Below, in pieces: positions 2,995 to 32,729 of a stretch of DNA of 64,000 nt. The position numbers and the translations under genes are program-made. The stretch's first letter is position 1. Each line of letters begins with the position of its first letter. Under the pieces are notes generated by a model. It saw only the letters and a program-made list of their open reading frames with translations, ran no database searches and was not told where the DNA came from. Origin of the DNA: Hymenobacter taeanensis (GTDB lineage: Bacteria > Bacteroidota > Bacteroidia > Cytophagales > Hymenobacteraceae); the NCBI RefSeq assembly GCF_013137895.1, contig NZ_CP053538.1, positions 3,503,001-3,567,000 of the forward strand, in the 5' to 3' direction.

Positions 2995-4221
2995 ATGCAG
3001 AAGAAACAACGCAATGCCCGCCTCGCTTGGCTCTTAAGTGCCACCGCAATTGCTGCCAGCGCTACCTTCACTGCCTGCTCGGAAGATGCTGTTCAGCCTT
3101 CCTCAGCCGGCGTAGCACAAAGCAGCAGCGATGCGAAAAGCGACGCTGACGTTATTCCTGGTCAGTACATTGTAGTACTGAAAGACGGTGCGGTTGAATT
3201 GAGTGGGAGTGAGCCTTACACCGAGAAAGTAAAGAAAGTTAAAGCAGTGGGACAGGGTATCCTGAAAGCCCGTGGCGCTAGCGCCGATGCGTTAGGCTTT
3301 GCCTACGGCCATGCCCTCAAAGGCTTCTCGGCTCGGCTGAGTGCTGCTGAGGCCAAATCTTTGCGCGAAGATGCCCGAGTGGCCTACGTAGAAGCTGACA
3401 AAGTTATTTCCCTGGGTAAGCCTTCTTCCGGCGGTGGTACTACCCAGCCCGCCCAGGTTACGCCCTACGGTATTGCGCGGGTAGGCACCGGCGACGGCAC
3501 TGGCAAAACTGCCTGGATCATTGATACCGGCATCGACCTCGACCACCCCGATCTGAACGTAGACGTTGCCCGCAGCAAGTCGTTCCTGACCAGCGGCGCC
3601 AACTATGCTTCTCCTGACGATGGCAACGGCCACGGCACGCACGTATCGGGCACCATTGCGGCTAAAAACAACACCATTGGTGTAGTAGGTGTAGCTGCTA
3701 ATGCTTCAGTAGTGGCAGTGCGGGTGCTTGACTCACGTGGTAGTGGCTCTAACTCCGGCGTTATTGCGGGTGTTGACTACGTAGGCGCCAACGGCAAAGC
3801 CGGTGATGTGGCCAACATGAGCCTCGGTGGCGGCGTTTCGCAGGCGCTGGATGATGCTGTTCTGCGGGCTTCCGCGGGTGGTGTACTCTTCGCGCTGGCC
3901 GCCGGCAACGAAACGGATAATGCCAACAATCACTCACCAGCTCGGGTGAATGGTGCCAACATCTTCACCATTTCGGCCATGAACAACACCGATACCTGGG
4001 CGTCGTTCTCCAACTACGGCAACCCACCGGTTGATTACTGCATGCCCGGCGTAAACATCCAGTCGACGTGGCTGAACGGTGGCTACAACACTATAAGCGG
4101 TACTTCTATGGCTACGCCGCACATGGCTGGCGTTCTGCTAATGAAAGGCAAGAACTTCACCACCAGCGGTACCGTGAAAAACGACCCAGACGGTAACCCC
4201 GATACTATCGCTCACCTGTAA
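2995..4221 (+). CDS. S8 family serine peptidase (subtilase) with propeptide
   Basis: A 408-residue secreted subtilisin-like endopeptidase. The N-terminus has a signal segment ending in TFTAC, so Cys28 may be lipidated. Residues about 50-140 form an inhibitor I9 type propeptide (IPGQYIVVLKDG...). The catalytic triad is complete: D177 in IIDTGID, H213 in NGHGTHVSGT, S371 in GTSMATPHMAG; the oxyanion Asn lies in AAGNE near 304. The layout resembles proteinase K/aqualysin-type enzymes, but no C-terminal sorting domain follows, and the protein ends soon after the catalytic Ser helix. Stands alone between rnpB and a convergent small lipoprotein gene, and ends at a strong terminator. Likely a degradative extracytoplasmic protease. 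Confidence 0.93.
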   Translation: MQKKQRNARLAWLLSATAIAASATFTACSEDAVQPSSAGVAQSSSDAKSDADVIPGQYIVVLKDGAVELSGSEPYTEKVKKVKAVGQGILKARGASADALGFAYGHALKGFSARLSAAEAKSLREDARVAYVEADKVISLGKPSSGGGTTQPAQVTPYGIARVGTGDGTGKTAWIIDTGIDLDHPDLNVDVARSKSFLTSGANYASPDDGNGHGTHVSGTIAAKNNTIGVVGVAANASVVAVRVLDSRGSGSNSGVIAGVDYVGANGKAGDVANMSLGGGVSQALDDAVLRASAGGVLFALAAGNETDNANNHSPARVNGANIFTISAMNNTDTWASFSNYGNPPVDYCMPGVNIQSTWLNGGYNTISGTSMATPHMAGVLLMKGKNFTTSGTVKNDPDGNPDTIAHL

Positions 4222-21516: not shown

Positions 21517-22926
21517 ATGAACTACCTAACTTTATTGGGCCTGTGGTTACTGCTTGCCGCGACTGCCCAGGCTCAAACAATATTGCAGTTAACCCAAGTG
21601 CCTGCGCACACGCCAGTGTCAGACACTCTATACCTGGCGGGCTCTTGTAACGCGTGGCAGCCCGCTAATAAAACCTATGCGTTTGTGCGAACTACCAATG
21701 GGCGCTATCAATGCACGCTACCCGCGACTTTGAAGGGAGACATAGAGTTTAAAATAACACGAGGTAGCTGGAACACGGTGGAAACGGATGCTCAACAGCA
21801 GGATATTGCAAATCGGCACCTGAACGTTAGCAGCGGACCTACCGTGGTGGAATTGCAAGTAGCCAACTGGAAGGATAATGGGGCAGGGGGAGCCCAGAAA
21901 CCCTGCCGAAGTACGGCCCTGAACCCTAATGTGCAGATACTGGCTGCTGACTTTTACATTCCTCAGCTCAAGCGCCAGCGCCGCGTATGGATATACTTAC
22001 CCAATGCATACGTGGCGGATTCTGCGAAGCGGTATCCAGTGCTGTATATGCACGATGGGCAGAACGTTTTTGATGCTTGCACCGGCTTCTCAGGTGAGTG
22101 GGGCGTAGACGAAACTTTAAGTCAATTGCAGCTGCAAGGGCTTGATGCCACCGGCTGCCTGGTAGTGGCTGTTGATAATGGTGGTTCAGAGCGGCTGAAT
22201 GAACTCTCGCCTTGGCGCAACCCTGAATATGGCGGTGGCCAAGGCGAGCAATACGTTGACTTTCTGGTTCAGACTCTCAAGCCCTATATAGATGCGCACT
22301 ACCGGACCCTAACCGGCCGGGAGTTTACTGGTATAGCAGGCAGCAGCATGGGAGGTTTAATTTCCACGTATGCTGCGCTGCAATACCCAGAGGTGTATAG
22401 CAAAGTGGGCGTGTTTTCTCCTGCGTTCTGGTTCGCCAAAGACTCCTTGTTTCAGTACGTAAACCAGCACCCCGCTAAGCCTGCCACCCGGTTTTACTTC
22501 GTAAGTGGCACAACGGAAAGCGAAACCATGGCCCCGTTAATGCAAAAAATGCACGCGGTGCTAGCGGAGCAGGGAGTACCAGCGCAGACCCTGGCCTACA
22601 GTACACCCGCTGATGGTAAGCACGCAGAGTGGTTTTGGAAAAGAGAGTTTGCCGCCGCCTACCAAATGCTTTATCCGGCCGATCAACCCGCTGCTTTAGC
22701 TTGTGGCGTATTCAATAGTGCGGCTCCAGATAAGCTGCGCATTGCGCTGCCCGCAGGAATACGGACTGCGAAGCTGGAGCTACTAGGTGTCGATGGTCAG
22801 CCTCGGCTTCGCAAGAAGGTGCAGGCGGGCAAGGAGGTTTCCGTAGGCCAGTTGAGAAAAGGCCAATATCTGCTGCGGATGTCAGTGGGCAAGCAGAGCA
22901 GCACCCAATTATACTTCAAAGATTAA
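21517..22926 (+). CDS. Secreted CE1-type esterase with N-terminal carbohydrate-binding module
   Basis: 469 residues from ATG 21517, the start of a good signal peptide (MNYLTLLGLWLLLAATAQAQ). Residues about 25-125 resemble a CBM20-type starch-binding module (LYLAGSCNAWQPANKTYAF, FKITRGSWNTVETDA). The catalytic alpha/beta-hydrolase domain of the Esterase D/Fes type follows: YPVLYMHDGQNVFD, and the nucleophile S277 in GSSMGG; the His is probably in DGKHAEWFW. The last ~70 residues (KLRIALPAGIRTAKLELLGVDGQ... QLYFKD) resemble a short sorting-domain-like beta module. It probably removes acyl groups from a polysaccharide. Divergent from susC. Confidence 0.82.
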   Translation: MNYLTLLGLWLLLAATAQAQTILQLTQVPAHTPVSDTLYLAGSCNAWQPANKTYAFVRTTNGRYQCTLPATLKGDIEFKITRGSWNTVETDAQQQDIANRHLNVSSGPTVVELQVANWKDNGAGGAQKPCRSTALNPNVQILAADFYIPQLKRQRRVWIYLPNAYVADSAKRYPVLYMHDGQNVFDACTGFSGEWGVDETLSQLQLQGLDATGCLVVAVDNGGSERLNELSPWRNPEYGGGQGEQYVDFLVQTLKPYIDAHYRTLTGREFTGIAGSSMGGLISTYAALQYPEVYSKVGVFSPAFWFAKDSLFQYVNQHPAKPATRFYFVSGTTESETMAPLMQKMHAVLAEQGVPAQTLAYSTPADGKHAEWFWKREFAAAYQMLYPADQPAALACGVFNSAAPDKLRIALPAGIRTAKLELLGVDGQPRLRKKVQAGKEVSVGQLRKGQYLLRMSVGKQSSTQLYFKD

Positions 22927-23003
22927 ACTTAAATTGGGGTAAAGCTCTCAAGAATTATGGAAGCTGTTTTGCGAAGTTTTCAATTAGAAAACCAAAAAAA
23001 CGC

Positions 23004-23033
23004 TTGTTCCGTAAAAAGCCCGCTGTACATTTG
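23004..23033 (+). promoter_or_regulatory. trp operon promoter
   Basis: TTG (23004-23006), 19 bases, then TACATTTG (23026-23033), a full match to the Bacteroidota -7 element TAnnTTTG at the standard spacing. Transcription should start near 23039-23041, about 20 bases before the leader peptide. Confidence 0.75.
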
Positions 23034-23060
23034 CAGCATTCAACGCTTTAACAATTGGCA

Positions 23061-23138
23061 ATGACTTCTCACATGACTCTGCAAGCTTGGTGGTGGCCCC
23101 TCGGAAATTCCGGACGGGACAGCCTGTGCGTGCGTTAG
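23061..23138 (+). CDS. trpL: trp operon leader peptide
   Basis: A 25-codon reading frame, ATG at 23061 to TAG at 23136-23138, with three consecutive TGG codons at 23088-23096 (residues 10-12, LQAWWWPLG). Trp is the rarest residue, so three in a row just upstream of trpE, with a terminator behind, is the signature of an attenuation leader peptide. A second ATG at 23073 is in frame. The peptide is a sensor of charged tRNA-Trp rather than a working protein. No strong Shine-Dalgarno sequence is seen, as is usual in this phylum. Confidence 0.88.
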   Translation: MTSHMTLQAWWWPLGNSGRDSLCVR

Positions 23139-23203
23139 AGTCAAGTGACAACCTCTTCGCAGCAAATCAACAGAAAGCCCGGCCGCCCCGCCGGGCTTTT
23201 TTT
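23098..23203 (+). promoter_or_regulatory. Transcription attenuator of the trp operon
   Basis: All four classical segments can be drawn. Protector 1:2: CCC 23098-23100 with GGG 23116-23118 and CGG 23102-23104 with CCG 23110-23112. Antiterminator 2:3: CGGACGGG (23111-23118) with CCCGGCCG (23178-23185), seven pairs and one A-G mismatch. Terminator 3:4: 23174-23183 with 23190-23199. A ribosome stalled on the Trp codons (to 23096) covers segment 1 and leaves segment 2 free to pair with 3, permitting read-through into trpE; a ribosome that reaches the stop at 23138 masks segment 2 and the terminator forms. Confidence 0.85.
23174..23203 (+). terminator. Attenuator terminator hairpin
   Basis: 10-bp stem AAAGCCCGGC/GCCGGGCTTT (23174-23183 with 23190-23199), loop of six bases, followed by a T run to 23203. 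It lies 46 bases before the trpE start. Confidence 0.92.
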
Positions 23204-23248
23204 ATTGCCCGGTACATAGCCGCTCCACAACCAGTACTTCGCTCCTGT

Positions 23249-24664
23249 ATGAAATCTTTCCGCTTAACTACCCGCCACCTTCGCGTACTTGCCGACACCG
23301 TAACTCCCGTAGGCCTGTACCTACGGCTGCGCGACCGGTACCCGAACTGCCTGCTGCTGGAAAGCTCCGATTACCACGGCCAGCAGAACGCCTTCAGCTA
23401 CCTCGTCTGCGACCCGTTAGCCCGCTTTGAAGTGCAGCGCGGCGTAGTGAAGCAAACCTTCCCCGACGACTCCGTTACCACCGAAACGCTGGCGGAGCCC
23501 CGGCAGGCCCTGGACCGGTTGCGGGAGTTTGCCAATTGCTTCGAGACGGAAGACCATGGCTTCGACTTCATCACGGGCGGCCTGTTTGGCTATCTGGGCT
23601 ATGAGGCGGTGCAGTACTTCGAGGACCTGACCCTAAACGAAGAGAAGGAAGCCGCGGGGCAGATTCCGGATATCATTTATGGCACCTACCGCTACGTTAT
23701 CGCGCTGAACCACTTCCGCAACGAGCTGTATGTGTTTGAGCACACCTTGGAGGGAGAGGCAGTAGATCAGGATGGCCTGGGCCGGTTGGTGAACCTGATC
23801 CGAAACCCCTCACTGCCGGAGTTTAGCTTCCAGACCAGCGGGCCTGAGCAGACCAACCAGACCGACGAGGAGTTTTTGAAAGTACTGGCCCAGGGGCAGC
23901 AGCACTGCCGCCGCGGCGACGTATTTCAGATTGTGCTCTCGCGCCGCTTTCAGCAGGGCTTTGTGGGGGATGAGTTTAACGTGTACCGGGCACTGCGCTC
24001 CATTAACCCTTCACCGTACCTTTTTTACTTCGACTACGGCAACTTCAAAATCTTCGGCTCTTCGCCCGAGACCCAGCTGTTGATTAAGGGTCGGAAGGCT
24101 AGCTTGTTCCCAATTGCCGGTACATTCCGCCGTACCGGCCACGATGCCGAAGACGCAGCCTTGGCCCAAAAGCTCGCCGACGACCCCAAGGAGAATGCCG
24201 AGCACACCATGCTCGTGGACTTGGCTCGAAACGATTTGGCCCGCCACGGCGATGAGGTAAAGGTGAACACCTTCCGCGAAATCCAGTTCTACTCGCACGT
24301 TATTCACTTGGTAAGTGAAGTAAATGCCACGCTGGCCCCCGAGGCAAATTCCCTGCAGGTTGTGGCCGACACTTTCCCGGCGGGTACGCTGTCGGGCGCA
24401 CCTAAGCACCGCGCCATGCAGCTCATTGATAGCTTGGAGCCCACCGGCCGCGGGTATTACGGCGGGGCCATTGGCCACCTGGGCTTCAACGGCGACTTCA
24501 ACCATGCCATCATGATTCGCTCTTTCCTTAGCACGGCGGGCCAGCTATACTTCCAGGCCGGCGCCGGCGTAGTTGCAGCCTCCGACATCAACTCTGAGCT
24601 AAACGAAGTGCACCATAAACTGGCGGCGTTGCGCAAGGCCCTGAAAGAGGCTGAGCAGGTGTAA
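23249..24664 (+). CDS. trpE: Anthranilate synthase component I
   Basis: 471 residues from ATG 23249 (MKSFRLTTRHLRVLADTVTP); an in-frame extension upstream would run through the attenuator terminator and is rejected. With TrpG it converts chorismate and glutamine to anthranilate. The chorismate-binding domain is complete: DVFQIVLSRRFQQGF, GSSPETQLLIKGRKASLFPIAGTFRR, ENAEHTMLVDLARNDLAR, FPAGTLSGAPKHRAMQLI, GYYGGAIGHLGF, AGAGVVAASDINSE. The N-terminal region contains LLESSDYHG, the Trp-binding-type LLES motif that supports feedback inhibition. First structural gene behind the attenuator. Confidence 0.97.
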   Translation: MKSFRLTTRHLRVLADTVTPVGLYLRLRDRYPNCLLLESSDYHGQQNAFSYLVCDPLARFEVQRGVVKQTFPDDSVTTETLAEPRQALDRLREFANCFETEDHGFDFITGGLFGYLGYEAVQYFEDLTLNEEKEAAGQIPDIIYGTYRYVIALNHFRNELYVFEHTLEGEAVDQDGLGRLVNLIRNPSLPEFSFQTSGPEQTNQTDEEFLKVLAQGQQHCRRGDVFQIVLSRRFQQGFVGDEFNVYRALRSINPSPYLFYFDYGNFKIFGSSPETQLLIKGRKASLFPIAGTFRRTGHDAEDAALAQKLADDPKENAEHTMLVDLARNDLARHGDEVKVNTFREIQFYSHVIHLVSEVNATLAPEANSLQVVADTFPAGTLSGAPKHRAMQLIDSLEPTGRGYYGGAIGHLGFNGDFNHAIMIRSFLSTAGQLYFQAGAGVVAASDINSELNEVHHKLAALRKALKEAEQV

Positions 24665-24766
24665 GAGAGGCTTGGGGTGTAGGGTCTTAAAGTTTGGAAA
24701 ACATGTAATCCTGGCGCCTCCGACCACCAACACCGCTTTATTAAGTATCATACGTTTTGCCTTGCG

Positions 24767-24807
24767 GAAACCTGAAGGGCTGGTGAATAGCCAAATTTCC
24801 AGGTTTC
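24767..24807 (+). repeat. Inverted repeat between trpE and trpG
   Basis: GAAACCTG (24767-24774) pairs with CAGGTTTC (24800-24807), and inside it GGCT (24778-24781) with AGCC (24789-24792). No T run follows, so it is more likely a processing or translation-affecting structure than a terminator. Confidence 0.4.
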
Positions 24808-24835
24808 TAAGCTCCCGAGTTCCTTAGATCCCAAC

Positions 24836-25408
24836 ATGAAAATTCTCGTCATTGACAACTACGACTCCTTCACCTACAACCTCGTGCAAGTGCTGCGGGA
24901 GCTGGGGTATGGAGCTGATACCACCGTCATTCGCAATGATAAGTTGACGCTAGAAGATGTAGAGGCCTACGATGCTGTGCTCTTGTCGCCGGGGCCGGGC
25001 CTGCCTTCGGAAGCGGGGCTAATGCCGGAAGTAATTCGGCGTTACGCACCCACCAAGCGCATGCTGGGCGTGTGCCTGGGCCACCAGGGCATTGCCGAGA
25101 GCTTCGGCGGCGAGTTGTACAATCTGCCCGACGTGCTGCATGGCATTGCCACCGATGCCAGCCTGACTACGAACGAAGAGGACAAGCTATTTCAGGGGCT
25201 GCCGCGGCAGTTTCGGGTAGGGCGCTACCACTCTTGGAGTGTGCAGCCGGAAAGCATGCCCGCCGAGCTGGAAGTAACTGCGCTCGATGCCAATGGGCAG
25301 GTGCTGGCTTTCCGTCACCGGCAGTACGATGTGCGCGGCGTACAATTTCACCCCGAGTCTATTCTAACGGAACACGGGCACCAAATGCTAAAAAACTGGC
25401 TGTCCTGA
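24836..25408 (+). CDS. trpG: Anthranilate synthase glutamine amidotransferase component II
   Basis: 190 residues. Class I glutamine amidotransferase with all catalytic residues: nucleophile C80 in GVCLGHQG, H172 and E174 in FHPES, and the oxyanion loop SPGPGLP. It releases ammonia from glutamine for TrpE. It starts 171 bases after trpE; the gap contains an inverted repeat at 24767-24807. TrpG is a stand-alone protein here, not fused to TrpD as in enteric bacteria. Confidence 0.96.
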   Translation: MKILVIDNYDSFTYNLVQVLRELGYGADTTVIRNDKLTLEDVEAYDAVLLSPGPGLPSEAGLMPEVIRRYAPTKRMLGVCLGHQGIAESFGGELYNLPDVLHGIATDASLTTNEEDKLFQGLPRQFRVGRYHSWSVQPESMPAELEVTALDANGQVLAFRHRQYDVRGVQFHPESILTEHGHQMLKNWLS

Positions 25409-25518
25409 TAGGCAGATAGCCACTAGGCCGCTAGGCCTGTTTAGTGTCACTTGGCATTGCCTAGTTCCTTGCTTCTCTCATTCAACTGCCTCGGTATCCC
25501 ACCGCAGAGGCTCCCCTC

Positions 25519-26511
25519 GTGAAACAGATTCTCAATCAATTATTTGACCAGCAAGCCCTAACGCACGCCGAAGCGCGCGAAGCCATGTACAGCATTGGGC
25601 AGGGGCAGGCTAACCCCTCCGAAATGGCCGCCTTCATGACGGTGTACCGCATGCGCCCCATTACGGTGCCGGAGCTGTCGGGCTTCCGCGATGCGCTGCT
25701 GGACTTGTCGCGCAACCCTGAGCTTGGGACCGATGAGGTAGTGGACATTGTGGGGACCGGCGGCGACGGCAAAGACACGCTCAACATCAGTACGCTGGCT
25801 TGCTTTGTAGTTGCTGGGGCCGGCTACAAAGTAGCCAAGCACGGCAACATTGGCGTCTCTTCGGTGTGTGGCTCCTCAGATGTGCTGGCTAAGCTGGGCG
25901 TTGATTTTGCCGTGCCGAACGATGTACTGAAGCGGCAGCTGGAGCAGGCCAACATTTGCTTTCTGCATGCCCCGTCGTTCCACCCGGCCATGCGCCATGC
26001 CGGGCCGGTGCGCCGCGAGCTGGGGGTGCGCACCTTCTTCAATATTCTGGGGCCGTTGGTGAACCCCGTGCGGCCACGCTACCAGTTGGCCGGCACTTTT
26101 AGTCTTGAGCTGCTGCGGCTGTACCACTATTTGCTCCAGCAAACCCAAACCCAATACGCGGTGGTGCATGCCTTGGATGGCTACGACGAGCTTTCCCTGA
26201 CGGGCGCCGCCAAAGTTGCCTCCGCCGCTGGCGAGCAAATTGTAACGGCCGCCGACTTTGGCCTGGCCGCTACCACCGCCGCCGAGCTGGCCGGGGGCCG
26301 CAACGTAGAAGAGTCGGCGAAGATATTCCTGGACGTGCTGGAAGGGCGGGCCACTACTCCCCAGCGAGCGGTGGTAACGGCCAACGCCGCGCTGGCTATC
26401 CAATGCGTAAAACCTGATTTCAGCTTCGCGGAAGCCTTGGCTGCAGCGCAAGAATCTCTGGACTCGGGCCGGGCCCGGGAATCGCTACGCAACTTGCTAG
26501 CCCAGGCCTGA
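25519..26511 (+). CDS. trpD: Anthranilate phosphoribosyltransferase
   Basis: 330 residues, GTG start at 25519 (MKQILNQLFDQQALTHAEAREAM). It joins anthranilate to PRPP. The PRPP site is clear: GTGGDGKDTLNIST near 81-94, KHGNIGVSSVCGSSDVL near 108-124 and FFNILGPLVNPVRP near 174-187. No closer ATG fits the family start, so GTG is retained. 110 bases downstream of trpG. Confidence 0.96.
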   Translation: MKQILNQLFDQQALTHAEAREAMYSIGQGQANPSEMAAFMTVYRMRPITVPELSGFRDALLDLSRNPELGTDEVVDIVGTGGDGKDTLNISTLACFVVAGAGYKVAKHGNIGVSSVCGSSDVLAKLGVDFAVPNDVLKRQLEQANICFLHAPSFHPAMRHAGPVRRELGVRTFFNILGPLVNPVRPRYQLAGTFSLELLRLYHYLLQQTQTQYAVVHALDGYDELSLTGAAKVASAAGEQIVTAADFGLAATTAAELAGGRNVEESAKIFLDVLEGRATTPQRAVVTANAALAIQCVKPDFSFAEALAAAQESLDSGRARESLRNLLAQA

Positions 26512-26629
26512 AATTCAGTTGTTTTTGCGAAAGCGGAAGCATTCTAGGCCAGTCTTGGTTTGCAACTATACCACGGCGCCGCAATTCTCATTTAAGCCCC
26601 GACTTTGAGCGGGCCATACGTTAGAAATC

Positions 26630-27451
26630 ATGAGTACCCCCACCATTCTGGATAAAATCATTGCTCATAAGCGCCAGGAAGTAGCAACTCGCCGCGACCT
26701 GGTGCCGGCCAAGAAGCTGGAGCAAAGCCTGTACATGAACTCTCAACCGCTGAGCTTGCGCCGGTACCTGCTACGCGACGACCTAAGCGGTATTATTGCT
26801 GAGTTCAAGCGTAAGTCGCCGAGCAAAGGCTTCATCAACGCGCACGCCCCCGTTGAGCGTACCACGCTGGGCTACATGCAGGCCGGCGCTTCGGCACTGT
26901 CGGTGCTGACGGATACGGAGTTCTTCGGCGGTAAGAATGAGGACCTGACCACGGCCCGGCGCTATAACTTCTGCCCCATTCTGCGCAAAGATTTTACCGT
27001 AGATGAGTACCAGATTCTGGAAGCCAAGAGCATTGGGGCCGATGCCATTCTGCTGATTGCGGCCGTGCTCTCAAGTGAAGAAGTGCTGCGCCTGGGTCGG
27101 TTTGCCAAAAGCCTTGGCCTGGAGGTGCTGCTGGAAATTCATAACGCCGAAGAGCTCGACAAAACGCTGCACCCCGACGCCGTAACGCTGGTGGGCGTAA
27201 ACAACCGCAACCTCCATGACTTTTCCGTGAGCCTGGATACCTCTGGGGAGTTGGCCCAGCGCATTCCTGATGAATTCGTGAAAGTAACGGAGAGTGGCCT
27301 ACAGACCGCCGCCGACATTGAGGCCCTGCGCGCCGTAGGCTACCGCGGCTTCCTGATGGGCGAAACCTTCATGCGCCATAGTCGGCCCGAAAAAGCCTGC
27401 GCTGCCTTGGTACAGCAACTGCGCGCCACAGAAGCCATTACGCTGTTATAG
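26630..27451 (+). CDS. trpC: Indole-3-glycerol phosphate synthase
   Basis: 273 residues, a single-function TIM barrel. It closes the ring of CdRP to indole-3-glycerol phosphate. Family motifs: IIAEFKRKSPSKG (catalytic Glu/Lys) near 55-67, ALSVLTDTEFFGG, PILRKDFTVDEYQI with the catalytic Lys, LVGVNNRNLHDFSV, and VTESGLQTAADI with GFLMGETFMR at the phosphate site. Separate from trpF, unlike the enteric fusion; 118 bases after trpD. Confidence 0.97.
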   Translation: MSTPTILDKIIAHKRQEVATRRDLVPAKKLEQSLYMNSQPLSLRRYLLRDDLSGIIAEFKRKSPSKGFINAHAPVERTTLGYMQAGASALSVLTDTEFFGGKNEDLTTARRYNFCPILRKDFTVDEYQILEAKSIGADAILLIAAVLSSEEVLRLGRFAKSLGLEVLLEIHNAEELDKTLHPDAVTLVGVNNRNLHDFSVSLDTSGELAQRIPDEFVKVTESGLQTAADIEALRAVGYRGFLMGETFMRHSRPEKACAALVQQLRATEAITLL

Positions 27452-27462
27452 GCCTAGCACTT

Positions 27463-28131
27463 ATGCCAACTGCTCCTACCATGTCTGCGCCCACTGGCAC
27501 TCCTTATATAAAGGTGTGCGGTATGCGCGAGCCCGCCAGTCTGGCGGCCGTGGCCGCACTCCAGCCCGATTTCCTGGGGTTCATTTTCTACTCAAAATCC
27601 AGCCGCTACGTGGGGGAGGAGCTGAGCGCTGAAACGCTGGCCGCATTGCCCACCAGCATTCGGAAAGTGGGGGTATTTGTGAATGAAAGCACCGAGGAAA
27701 TCAGGCGGCGCGTGCAGGAGCTGGGCCTGGATCTGGTGCAGCTGCACGGCCACGAAACCCCGGCTCAGTGTCAGGAACTGCGGGAGAGCGGCCTGGCAGT
27801 GGTGAAGGCTTTCTCCGTGGGAGCCGACTTCGACTTTGGCCAGCTGATGCCCTATGTAGGCCACGTCGATTACTTTCTCTTCGATACGAAAGGCGAGCAA
27901 CCCGGCGGCAACGGCACCACTTTCGACTGGAGCCTGTTGACGCGTTACCCGTTGGAGGTGCCCTACTTCCTGGCGGGTGGCCTAGGCCTCGCCCACGCCA
28001 GCGGCTTACGTAACCTACGCCTGCCGGGCCTGTTTGCACTGGACCTGAACAGCCGGTTTGAAACGGCCCCTGGGGTGAAGGACGCCACCTTGCTCCGGCA
28101 AATGTTTACTGAACTCCGGCCCGGCAGCTAA
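27463..28131 (+). CDS. trpF: Phosphoribosylanthranilate isomerase
   Basis: 222 residues from ATG 27463; the ATG at 27481 ([15 protein letters not shown]) is an equally good start. The catalytic Cys is in IKVCGMREP, and the phosphate site in FLAGGL. Other markers are [30 protein letters not shown] and FLFDTKG. It isomerises PRA to CdRP, the step before TrpC. It begins 11 bases after the trpC stop, so the two are translated closely together. Confidence 0.95.
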
Positions 28132-28165
28132 TGCCCGGCCGCATCAACAAGCAACCAACCTCATC

Positions 28166-29362
28166 ATGAGCACTACCTACCAAAAACCTACGGAGCGTGG
28201 CTATTACGGCCAATTCGGCGGGGCTTTCATTCCTGAGATGCTCTACCCGAACGTAGAAGAGCTGCGCCACAACTACCTGGACATTATGGCCGAGCCGGCG
28301 TTTCAGGAGGAGTACCAGCAATTACTGCGCGACTACGTGGGCCGGCCTACGCCACTGTTCGAGGCCAAGCGACTGTCGGAGAAGTATAACACCCGCATTT
28401 TTCTGAAGCGTGAGGACCTTTGCCATACTGGCGCCCACAAAGTAAACAACACCGTAGGCCAGATCTTGCTGGCCAAGCGGCTGGGCAAAACGCGCATCAT
28501 CGCGGAAACTGGCGCGGGTCAGCACGGCGTGGCCACGGCTACGGTGTGCGCCCTCATGGGTATGCAGTGCATTGTGTACATGGGCGAAATTGACATGGAG
28601 CGCCAGAAGCCAAACGTGTACCGCATGCGCCTGCTGGGGGCTGAGGTGCGCGCCGCCATGAGTGGCAGCCGCACCCTGAAAGATGCCACCAACGAAGCCA
28701 TCCGGGACTGGATCAGCAACCCCGTGGATACGCACTACATTATTGGCTCGGTGGTAGGCCCACACCCGTACCCCGATCTGGTAGCACGCCTGCAGGCCGT
28801 AATCAGTGAAGAGATGCGCAAGCAGCTGCTGGAGAAAACCGGCTCTGAGCTACCCCAGTACGTAGTGGCCTGCGTGGGTGGTGGCTCCAATGCCGCGGGG
28901 GCCTTCTACCATTTCCTGGAAGAGCCTTCGGTGAAGCTGGTAGCGGTAGAAGCGGCTGGGCACGGCGTTAACTCCGGCCATTCGGCGGCTACGTCGGTGC
29001 TGGGCAAACCAGGTATCATTCACGGCTCGCGCACCTTACTTATGCAGGATGAGGATGGCCAGATTACGGAGCCGTATTCGCTGTCGGCGGGCCTGGATTA
29101 CCCTGGTATTGGGCCATTACACGCTTTCTTGGCCGACTCCGGTCGGGCGCGGTTTATCAGCATTGAGGATGAGCCGGCGCTAAAAGCAGTAGCGGAGTGC
29201 AGCCGGCTGGAAGGCATCATCCCGGCCCTTGAAACGGCTCACGCCTTGGCCGCGCTAGGCCAGTTAGGGGCCGGCCCCGACGATGTAGTGGTAGTAAACC
29301 TCTCCGGCCGCGGCGACAAAGACCTGGAAACGTACATTAAGTACGCCGACGCTATTATGTGA
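28166..29362 (+). CDS. trpB: Tryptophan synthase beta chain
   Basis: 398 residues. The PLP lysine is K92 in HTGAHKVNN. Further markers: [15 protein letters not shown] at the N-terminus, [13 protein letters not shown], the phosphate cradle [10 protein letters not shown], and [11 protein letters not shown]. It condenses indole with serine to tryptophan, working as an alpha2-beta2 complex with TrpA. It has the canonical TrpB1 form. It starts 34 bases after trpF. Confidence 0.97.
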
Positions 29363-29374
29363 TTATTTCTCGCA

Positions 29375-29449
29375 GAGGACCGCAGATGTATCGCAGAGGT
29401 GCGCAGACGAACGACCTCCGTGTACCTCTGCGCAACCTCTGCGGTCCTC
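29375..29449. repeat. CGCAGAGG-type inverted repeat between trpB and trpA
   Basis: Outer arms GAGGACCGCAGA (29375-29386) and its complement (29438-29449) are a perfect 12-bp match; inner arms CGCAGAGGT (29392-29400) and ACCTCTGCG (29424-29432) match over 9 bp. CGCAGA units recur several times within it. There is no T run after it, so it need not end transcription. Confidence 0.7.
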
Positions 29450-29464
29450 AGCGGGAACCAACTC

Positions 29465-30244
29465 ATGAACCGAATTCAACAAGCATTTGAGAAGAAGCAG
29501 CGCGGTCTGCTTAATATTTACTTCACCGCCGGCTACCCCACGCTTGATGCCACGGTGCCCCTTATCAAAGCCATTTCGGCTGCTGGTGCCGACCTGATTG
29601 AAATTGGGATGCCGTTTTCTGACCCATTGGCCGATGGCCCTGTGATTCAACAGAGCAGCACCGTGGCCCTGGCCAACGGCATGAATATGCGGGTGCTGTT
29701 TCGCCAGCTGGAAGGCATTAGGGAGGAAGTGGCCGAAACGCCGATTCTGCTGATGGGTTACCTGAACCCGGTCATGCAGTTCGGGGTAGAGAACTTTTGC
29801 CGCGAAGCTGCTGCTGCGGGCGTAGATGGCATTATTCTGCCTGATTTGCCCCTCGACGATTACGTGGCCGAGTATCAGGAGACGTTCCGCCAGCATAATC
29901 TAAGGCCAGTGTTCCTCATCACGCCCCAAACAGCGCCCGAGCGTATTCGCCGGATTGATGAGCTGACAGACTCTTTCCTGTATCTGGTGTCGGGGCCCGG
30001 CACTACTGGTGGGCAAAATACTCAGGCTGAGGGCGTGCAGGAGGCCTACTTCCAGCGCATTGAGGCCATGAACCTGCGCAACCCGCGCCTCATCGGCTTC
30101 GGTATCGGCGACAAAGCTTCGTTCCAGAATGCCTGCCAGCATGCGGAGGGAGCCATCATTGGCTCGGCTCTGATACGGGCATTAGAAGGTGTGGATGATG
30201 CTCCTGGCGCCGCCACCCGGTTTATTCAGTCGGTAATTAAGTAA
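29465..30244 (+). CDS. trpA: Tryptophan synthase alpha chain
   Basis: 259 residues from ATG 29465 (MNRIQQAFEKKQRGLLNIYFTAGYP); an upstream in-frame extension runs through the inverted repeat and is rejected. The catalytic Glu lies in LIEIGMPFSDPLADGPVIQ and the catalytic Asp in DGIILPDLPLDDY; the phosphate site is near GFGIGDKASF and GSALIRAL. It splits indole-3-glycerol phosphate to indole, passed to TrpB. It lies 102 bases after trpB with the repeat between. Confidence 0.97.
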   Translation: MNRIQQAFEKKQRGLLNIYFTAGYPTLDATVPLIKAISAAGADLIEIGMPFSDPLADGPVIQQSSTVALANGMNMRVLFRQLEGIREEVAETPILLMGYLNPVMQFGVENFCREAAAAGVDGIILPDLPLDDYVAEYQETFRQHNLRPVFLITPQTAPERIRRIDELTDSFLYLVSGPGTTGGQNTQAEGVQEAYFQRIEAMNLRNPRLIGFGIGDKASFQNACQHAEGAIIGSALIRALEGVDDAPGAATRFIQSVIK

Positions 30245-30253
30245 CACTTTCTA

Positions 30254-30305
30254 CCGCAGAGCCCCCTTTGCGGCCCTCCGCGCACACCCCTGTGTTCCTC
30301 TGCGG
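30254..30305. repeat. Second CGCAGAGG-type inverted repeat
   Basis: CCGCAGAG (30254-30261) pairs with CTCTGCGG (30298-30305). It is the same family as the repeat between trpB and trpA, here between trpA and the DAHP synthase gene. Confidence 0.6.
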
Positions 30306-30321
30306 AAACCCCCTCCAGCAC

Positions 30322-31335
30322 ATGATCATTCAATTAGACCCGACCATTGCCGAAACCGCTAAAGCGGACATTCTGGCCCGCATCAAAGACCTGAAGTATA
30401 AAGCCACGGAGGTAAAAACCCAGCGGGCGCATTACTTGGTGGCTATTGGCAAAGCCGATATTGATCTGCGCGCCATCGGCCAGCTGCCTGGCATCCTGGA
30501 TATTCACCGCGTGTCCGACGACTACAAGCTGGTGTCACGGAAGTGGCGCGTGCGGCCCACTGTTCTCGACCTCGGCGACGGCGTGCGGATAGGGGAGGGT
30601 AACCTCACGCTGGCCGCCGGCCCCTGTAGCATTGAGAGCGAGCCGCAGATGGAGCTTATCATGCAGCACCTCGTGGATAACGACGTGCGCATTATGCGGG
30701 GCGGCGTGTTTAAACCGCGCTCTTCACCGTATTCCTTCCGGGGCTTGGGTATGGAAGGCTTAAAGCTGTTCCACCAAATGGCTCGGGCGCGCGGCATCAA
30801 GATTATCACGGAGGTGATGCAGGTGTCGCAGGTTGAGGAGATGCACGACTACGTAGATGTGTTTCAGGTGGGCGCCCGCAACACCCAAAACTTCAACTTG
30901 CTCGATGCCCTCGGCGGCGTAGATAAGCCCGTAATGATTAAGCGCGGCATTTCCGGTACCCTGGAGGAGCTACTGTCGTCGGCGGAATATGTATTCTCGG
31001 GTGGCAACGAGAAGCTGATTCTCTGCGAGCGAGGCATCCGCACGTTTGAAACAGCCTCGCGCAATACGCTTGATTTGAATGCGGTGCCTATCCTCAAAGA
31101 GAAGACCCACTTGCCCGTCATCGTTGACCCCTCGCACGGCATTGGTATTCGGGAGTACGTACCCTCAATGGCGCTGGCCGGCGTAATGGCCGGCGCCGAC
31201 GGCATCATCTATGAAGCCCACGAGAAGCCGGAAGAAGCAGCTTCTGATGGAGCTCAGACCTTGAATTTCCAGGAGTCGGAGCGCCTGATCCGGAATCTGC
31301 GCAAAGTGTACGCCCTGCGCCAGGAGCTGGAATAG
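30322..31335 (+). CDS. aroF: 3-deoxy-7-phosphoheptulonate (DAHP) synthase, type I beta
   Basis: 337 residues from ATG 30322 (MIIQLDPTIAETAKADILARIKDLKYK). The first ~70 residues form a ferredoxin/ACT-like domain of the kind on Thermotoga-type DAHP synthases, where it mediates feedback inhibition. The catalytic barrel has LAAGPCSIESE, RGGVFKPRSSPYSFRGLG, QVGARNTQNF, VMIKRGIS and IVDPSHGIG, covering the PEP, E4P and metal sites. It makes the first shikimate-pathway intermediate. As the last gene of the trp operon it links chorismate supply to Trp demand. No chorismate mutase domain is visible. Confidence 0.93.
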   Translation: MIIQLDPTIAETAKADILARIKDLKYKATEVKTQRAHYLVAIGKADIDLRAIGQLPGILDIHRVSDDYKLVSRKWRVRPTVLDLGDGVRIGEGNLTLAAGPCSIESEPQMELIMQHLVDNDVRIMRGGVFKPRSSPYSFRGLGMEGLKLFHQMARARGIKIITEVMQVSQVEEMHDYVDVFQVGARNTQNFNLLDALGGVDKPVMIKRGISGTLEELLSSAEYVFSGGNEKLILCERGIRTFETASRNTLDLNAVPILKEKTHLPVIVDPSHGIGIREYVPSMALAGVMAGADGIIYEAHEKPEEAASDGAQTLNFQESERLIRNLRKVYALRQELE

Positions 31336-31994: not shown

Positions 31995-32729
31995 ATGCTT
32001 CAGCAGCACTACGATCGGTACACGACGCAGGACCAGTTGGTTTGGAAAGTATTGTTTGACCGCCAAACGGCTCTTCTGCACAAGCGGGCCTGCTCGGCTT
32101 TTGCCAAGGGACTGGTGGCAGTGGGCTTTCACCGCAATGCTATTCCCAACTTTGAGGAGGTCAGTCAGCGTTTGTATAAAGCTACTGGTTGGCAGCTGGA
32201 GCCAGTGGAAGGCATGCTGAACGATGCTCAGTTCTTTGGGTTGCTGGCCCAGCGTAAGTTTCCGGCTACCGTCTGGATCCGCTCCATGGCGCAGTTCGAT
32301 TTCATTGAGGAGCCCGACCTGTTCCACGGCGTATTTGGGCACGTGCCGTTGCTGATGGATCAGGCCTTTGCCGATTTTCTGCACTTCTTGGGGCAAGTAG
32401 CCGCTCAGCACTTGCAGGATGAAGTGGCCCTCACTCGGCTTGAGCGGCTGTATGGCTTCACGGTGCAATTTGGGCTAGTGCAGGAGCGGGGTGAGGCCCG
32501 GATGTACGGGGCTGGTTTGTTGTCGTCATCAGGCGAGATTCATCATTGCATCGGCGACGTTACCCGCCGCTACCCCTTCGACTTGGCCACGGTACTCCAA
32601 ACGCCTTACAGCGAAGCGCATCTGCAGGACCAGTACTTCCTGCTCAACAGCTGGGAGCAGCTCACCGAGAGTGTAGCCGAATTGGCTGCTTTGCTGGCCT
32701 CTAACTGGCAGCTCAAGCCCGTGGAATAG
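31995..32729 (+). CDS. phhA: Aromatic amino acid hydroxylase family (phenylalanine 4-monooxygenase-like)
   Basis: 244 residues. Fold markers of the biopterin-dependent hydroxylases are present: VWIRSMAQFDFIEEPDLFHGVFGHVPLL gives iron-ligand His at 111 and 116 and the Phe-binding Arg in VWIR; MYGAGLLSSSGE follows. Two positions are odd. The usual LYWFTVEFGL supplies the third iron ligand, a Glu; here the sequence is LYGFTVQFGL with Gln158. The acidic residue normally after the first His (HD or HE) is Gly112. The protein may still hydroxylate Phe with a changed iron site, act on something else, or be weak. It stands alone behind its own palindrome, promoter and leader. Confidence 0.82.
   Translation: MLQQHYDRYTTQDQLVWKVLFDRQTALLHKRACSAFAKGLVAVGFHRNAIPNFEEVSQRLYKATGWQLEPVEGMLNDAQFFGLLAQRKFPATVWIRSMAQFDFIEEPDLFHGVFGHVPLLMDQAFADFLHFLGQVAAQHLQDEVALTRLERLYGFTVQFGLVQERGEARMYGAGLLSSSGEIHHCIGDVTRRYPFDLATVLQTPYSEAHLQDQYFLLNSWEQLTESVAELAALLASNWQLKPVE

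Follow-up and report, generated by a model that had tools for sequence, protein, structure and literature searches.

The window analysed here, a stretch of 64,000 nucleotides from Hymenobacter taeanensis, carries a set of tryptophan biosynthesis genes on its plus strand: trpE (start at 23249), trpG (24836), trpD (25519), trpC (26630), trpF (27463), trpB (28166) and trpA (29399). They are followed by a gene for DAHP synthase (about 30319 – 31335, plus strand), the last gene of the controlled set (23249 – 31335). From their order and common strand, the genes from trpE to DAHP synthase would form one operon. The products of trpG, trpD, trpC, trpB and trpA and the DAHP synthase passed their curated NCBIfam cut-offs, and TrpE and TrpF were identified as best matches, yet under the curated cut-offs of their families. 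A phenylalanine 4-monooxygenase gene (31995 – 32729, plus strand) is located just 3′ of the cluster.

Upstream of trpE lies a leader peptide frame of 25 codons (23061 – 23138, plus strand), which encodes MTSHMTLQAWWWPLGNSGRDSLCVR and is kept in relatives; its codons 10 – 12 are three tandem, putatively regulatory Trp codons, TGG TGG TGG (23088 – 23096). When both strands of the window were scanned for ATG frames of 8 – 45 codons holding WWW, this leader was the sole one, listed by the scan from its second ATG at 23073. The leader region is single copy in the 4.88 Mb genome, and the leader is common to Hymenobacter loci L180 – L182 and L238, whose TrpE proteins share 81 – 84% identity with that of the window. 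A candidate promoter was read at 23004 – 23033 (plus strand), with TTG at 23004 – 23006, a 19-base spacer and TACATTTG at 23026 – 23033. The Bacteroidota promoter consensus is given as TTTG / TAnnTTTG (PMC7366714); TACATTTG and the spacing of TTG agree with it, and the promoter is of the Bacteroidota type. Of 65 Hymenobacter loci, 57 have TAnnTTTG ahead of the leader. In the window the distance from the TA of this box to the leader ATG is 35 bases, transcription is expected to start near 23038, and no evident Shine-Dalgarno sequence precedes the ATG. The first-pass annotation had described a 25-codon leader with three tandem TGG codons behind a Bacteroidota promoter, and this description held at each of these positions.

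In the minimum-energy fold, a protector hairpin formed by the inner arm of segment 1 and segment 2 is present at 23097 – 23118, as had been drawn. An outer 1:2 stem, joining 23069 – 23083 with 23131 – 23148, encloses both the Trp codons and the protector; the earlier set of structures had correctly contained protector, antiterminator and terminator, and had overlooked this stem. Segment 3, CCCGGCCG (23178 – 23185), can be either the partner of segment 2, CGGACGGG (23111 – 23118), in an antiterminator or a part of the intrinsic terminator, whose hairpin and U tract occupy 23172 – 23203, 46 bases 5′ of trpE, all on the plus strand. The terminator, previously given as 23174 – 23199, folds as a hairpin at 23172 – 23201 with its U tract at -20.7 kcal/mol (z -4.76), and none of 200 shuffles was equally good; a simple consensus terminator scan listed the hairpin on the minus strand only. 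The drawn antiterminator was borne out in part: the two segments stand where they had been placed and form 7 pairs around one A-C mismatch (CGGACGGG / CCCGGCCG), and the duplex of leader and terminator arm taken alone was no better than shuffles in this G + C-rich stretch of the window (p 0.63). The top-scoring register between leader and terminator arm also differs from the register drawn. In most Hymenobacter copies the duplex energy was not better than chance against shuffles, and the structure that RNAalifold gave for the Hymenobacter alignment consisted of the terminator and a small hairpin within segment 2, with the 1:2 structure absent.

A census of the family covered 150 genomes, 146 of which have a full-length TrpE, and about 500 bases upstream were read in all 146. 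The script required an ATG frame of 8 – 45 codons with WW, followed by a terminator 15 – 150 bases behind it. A tandem-Trp leader with a terminator was found before all 146 trpE genes, 142 by the script and four by hand, the latter being L061, which has a hairpin with a weak U tract, and L280, L298 and L301, which have a GTG start. Applied to controls from the same upstream regions, the script gave a leader with a terminator on 2 of the 146 opposite strands and in none of 292 dinucleotide shuffles. Triple-residue runs of Trp occur in 114 of the 146 family leaders versus 0 – 3 of 146 for each other residue, and all 47 distinct main-type leaders from Hymenobacter have WWW, always as TGG TGG TGG. 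Evidently the tandem TGG codons, whose conservation had been proposed as a check, are kept in relatives.

The order and class sample comprised 50 loci (L073 – L096 and L101 – L126), of which four lie at contig ends and 46 were readable. The contig-end loci L075, L077, L081 and L121 have 54, 154, 9 and 113 bases upstream, respectively; no leader was found within the short upstream stretches of L077 and L121, and the contig end of L121 carries what we take to be sequencing-adapter-like sequence. Leader and terminator were present in 36 of the 46 readable loci (34 by script, L086 by hand and L090 before trpB). The operon of L090 starts with trpB, and its attenuator stands before that gene. A tandem-Trp leader with a terminator was absent in the other 10 of 46 (L079, L088, L089, L102, L104, L108, L109, L110, L112 and L126); the leader of L089 has a single Trp codon. 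Two tRNA-Trp (CCA) genes (2927 – 2998 and 3027 – 3098, minus strand) are located directly upstream of the trpE gene of L104, which has no leader peptide, on the same strand. Many genomes of the class sample are without any full-length TrpE.

The phylum search spanned 61 genomes, and the loci read were 24 newly fetched ones rather than every match, with terminators judged by eye. A frame with close Trp codons was found in 20 of the 24 (L166 included; the Trp codons of L169 are spaced), and no Trp frame was found in L165, L174, L176 and L179. In a sample with organism names, for which the script also took W-x-W and, where ATG was lacking, GTG or TTG starts, leader and terminator were present in 78 of 80 loci; they were missing in L240 and in L244, which has 34 bases upstream only. 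The named carriers include Hymenobacter, Pontibacter, Adhaeribacter, Flavobacterium, Pedobacter, Mucilaginibacter and Sphingobacterium. The samples overlap, because several contigs are represented both by a named locus and by another locus of the census (L238 = L029, L180 = L037, L183 = L326 and L205 = L298).

To compute the effect of ribosome position, the transcript was taken to the terminator loop, a ribosome footprint was put on each codon in turn, and segment 2 was scored for its pairing with the terminator arm and loop. Averaged over 50 Hymenobacter leaders, this pairing was 0.12 in the free transcript; it was 0.41 when the A site contained the first Trp codon, 0.55 when it contained the third and 0.02 when it contained the stop codon. 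The value on the first Trp codon was above that of the free transcript in 42 leaders and below it in none. For the window's own copy the values were 0.30 on the first Trp codon, 0.73 on the second, 0.72 on the third and 0.04 at the stop codon, and in the computation the protector at 23097 – 23118 was opened when the footprint lay on the third Trp codon. For E. coli trpL the same kind of measure gave 0.00 free, 0.30 and 0.62 on the Trp codons, 0.60 on the Arg codon that follows them and 0.00 at the stop codon. The claim that the Trp codons lie where a stalled ribosome would block only the protector was supported by the computed 2:3 pairing. This measure had replaced an earlier unspecific one, which counted any upstream pairing of the terminator arm and found no effect in Hymenobacter (first Trp codon above the stop codon in 19, below in 16, n = 50). 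By the unspecific measure the first Trp codon was above the stop codon in 14 of 17 other family loci and below in 1, and above in 24 of 34 class and order loci and below in 4.

Covariation was found both between and within lineages. In 41 divergent loci, each terminator arm paired with its own leader at a mean of -13.3 kcal/mol versus -10.6 (sd 0.42) kcal/mol with the leaders of others, and 0 of 20000 permutations over the 41 representatives reached this value in the 2:3 swap test. Eighteen of the 41 ranked in the best tenth and 11 in the worse half. In most of the 43 aligned Pontibacter leaders, GTGAACAGC is retained together with GCTGTTCAC of the terminator (7 loci in which the script missed the terminator end were dropped), and examples of 2:3 pairs in other lineages are GGCGATAAGTC/GACTTATCGC and CAGTAGGC/GCCTACTG. 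The 2:3 pairing, conservation of which in relatives had been put forward as the second check, is therefore kept with differing sequences across lineages. In Pontibacter (e.g. L065 and L267), a stretch behind segment 2 (GCCATTCT or GTTCT) matches the terminator 3′ arm (AGAATGGC or AGAAC); the two seem to change together and may constitute a second alternative pairing.

Three versions of the 2:3 pair occur within Hymenobacter: in 54 of 65 loci CCCGGCC faces CGGACGGG or CGGACCGG (or a one-base edge variant), and in 8 of 65 GGCTGAGC faces GCTGCTC or TTGCTC; neither segment 2 version was found by the script in the other 3. The main-type pairs contain a mismatch or bulge and scarcely vary, so that covariation within the genus rests on the outer 1:2 stem. 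This stem covaries, with 0 of 20000 permutations for each of 29, 21 and 17 representatives and P = 0.00015 for 10 representatives.

The conservation of the leader could have another cause, namely that the peptide acts in trans besides attenuation, as has been reported for peTrpL of Sinorhizobium meliloti (PMC7298713). Besides that precedent, Hymenobacter leaders share a conserved second half of the peptide, WWWPxxNSGRDxLCVR, and 46 of 47 distinct ones have Ala9, for which four different codons are used. Most of the peptide conservation, however, looks RNA-driven and extends to synonymous sites: GGA is used in 47 of 47 leaders and CTG in all 42 with Leu22, and codon use in the second half of the leader shows what appears to be a constraint at the RNA level. 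A change of codon 19 from CGG to CCG replaces Arg by Pro and retains seven pairs, which preserves the pairing but not the peptide. Codons 2 – 7 are variable, and the peptides of other family genera are unrelated. Peptide function as the main cause of leader conservation was rejected on account of this RNA-driven constraint, and an additional role of the peptide in trans appears improbable.

Two further explanations do without a stalled ribosome at the Trp codons. The hairpin is the first strong plus-strand terminator behind the upstream hydrolase gene, which ends at 22926, and might merely terminate that gene, the short frame being incidental. It stands, however, about 250 bases past the hydrolase stop codon and follows a promoter, and leader and terminator occur together before trpE throughout the family and before trpB where trpB comes first; with a promoter between them and leader and terminator conserved together, this explanation was rejected as having next to no likelihood. 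A different RNA sensor, a T-box or a TRAP-bound leader, would have its model in Bacillota, where T-box and TRAP control trp genes. No T-box was present among 15 Rfam matches (E up to 10) in 22940 – 23260, and no TRAP protein was matched in the genome by a search which found the control Bacillus subtilis. Such control was rejected on these grounds as extremely improbable. Nor did the genome show a match to a TrpR family protein, in a search which found the controls Escherichia coli and Bacillus subtilis.

We therefore conclude, with a probability of about 0.93, that the element is a ribosome-mediated transcription attenuator of the trp operon. The conclusion is drawn because leader and terminator occur together in 146 of 146 family loci (controls 2/146 and 0/292), and because of the masking computation, the covariation, the trpB-first case and the lack of TrpR and TRAP matches. 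Weighed against it were the chance level of the duplex in the window, the null result of unspecific masking in Hymenobacter, the 11 of 41 loci in the worse half and the 10 of 46 loci without a leader. The attenuator is ordinary in kind and well supported. From its anatomy we infer the following kinetics and response to tryptophan. RNA polymerase would start near 23038, and a ribosome would initiate on the leader, for which no Shine-Dalgarno sequence is evident. If Trp-tRNA is sufficient, the ribosome would reach the stop codon, segment 2 would be held in the protector, and the terminator would form and stop transcription near 23200. When Trp-tRNA is scarce, the ribosome would wait on the Trp codons and the protector would be opened; 23111 – 23118 would then pair with 23178 – 23185 before the terminator closes, and the polymerase would continue into trpE. 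If the leader is untranslated, the 1:2 structure would form and transcription would terminate.

In genus g6, two Trp leaders in series were found upstream of trpE in 15 of 15 genomes (L052, L054, L056, L060, L318, L319, L322 – L325, L328 – L331 and L333), behind a single promoter, TAnnTTTG not recurring between them. Both leaders are followed by a terminator (10 by script, 5 by eye). From the TA of the promoter box to the first ATG the distance is exactly 12 bases; the corresponding distance is 15 in 8 of 8 loci of genus g4, taken as Adhaeribacter. The ATG of the first g6 leader lies 4 bases behind the box; transcription starting a few bases past the box would make this leader leaderless, which it probably is. 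For Bacteroidota, leaderless mRNAs have been reported to be uncommon, with 5.5% in F. psychrophilum (PMC9723704). Taken together, trp attenuation is likely to be general and old across Bacteroidota, a phylum that initiates without a Shine-Dalgarno sequence, with one genus having doubled it as a two-step tryptophan gate.

Leader-peptide control may be wider in the family, because a His-rich short frame precedes hisG in 29 of 29 family genomes read (L127 – L155, the own genome being L155), a raw count without shuffles. A hairpin, ATTCCTC...GAGGAAT, is located at the stop codon of 20 of these 29 frames. No clear U-tailed terminator was found at hisG of the own genome, and the hisG leaders perhaps use a different leader-peptide mechanism. 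Directly upstream of ilvD in the own genome, an I/L/V-rich leader with a terminator was absent; I/L/V-rich frames are located upstream of ilvD in some relatives (L352 – L354 and L357), and a long near-perfect inverted repeat with arms of about 35 bases lies between ilvD and the preceding gene in the own genome (L358).

Classical attenuators require a ribosome close behind RNA polymerase. If attenuation is general in Bacteroidota, which initiate translation without Shine-Dalgarno sequences, polymerase and leading ribosome would have to be kinetically coupled there. An attenuator before nearly every readable Bacteroidota trpE would provide a native quantitative reporter for transcription-translation coupling and, where genetic tools for an organism are scarce, an element that responds to amino acids. 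The tandem form would let multiplication by two serial attenuators be tested, and the attenuator loci point to a family absent from Rfam.

Attenuators of trp genes have been described for Proteobacteria, and comparative surveys by the Lyubetsky and Yanofsky groups may include some from Bacteroidota. A full-text literature search, with supplements and most subscription papers outside its scope, returned no description of a Bacteroidota trp attenuator among the matches listed. Like trpL of E. coli K-12, the Hymenobacter element has a short tandem-Trp leader between promoter and trpE, a protector, an antiterminator and a U-tailed terminator, and in computations of one kind the position of the ribosome had the same effect on both. 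Unlike trpL, its leader has 25 rather than 14 codons and three rather than two Trp codons, its stop codon lies 18 bases behind segment 2 whereas that of E. coli precedes segment 2, and its outer stem joins codons 4 – 9 to the stop region; it also differs in the Bacteroidota promoter, the lack of an evident Shine-Dalgarno sequence and the lack of a TrpR match. The Rfam family Trp_leader (RF00513) matched 23082 – 23204 with 19.4 bits (E 0.14), under its 41-bit gathering cut-off and outscored by three unrelated families in the same stretch, and gave 0 matches over the cut-off in 11 related loci; RNase P alone exceeded its gathering score in the window. By score, the Hymenobacter attenuator is not a member of Rfam Trp_leader. 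The trp attenuators described for Corynebacterium and Streptomyces likewise have double or triple UGG leaders, an antiterminator and a G + C-rich terminator, but belong to another phylum; a conserved gGCC-rGCy-GGCC triple is given for them (PMC1262725). Closer is the proposal for Flavobacterium psychrophilum, of the same phylum, where strong clues were reported for the same leader-peptide attenuation before amino-acid operons, with elements of pheA and hisG named; the section concerned names no trp leader, and the words 'tryptophan' and 'trpE' are absent from the text that was searched (PMC9723704). Leader-peptide-like short frames are also mentioned for B. thetaiotaomicron (PMC7366714). The kind of system is known, and it is seen here across the phylum, under the Rfam cut-off and doubled in one genus.
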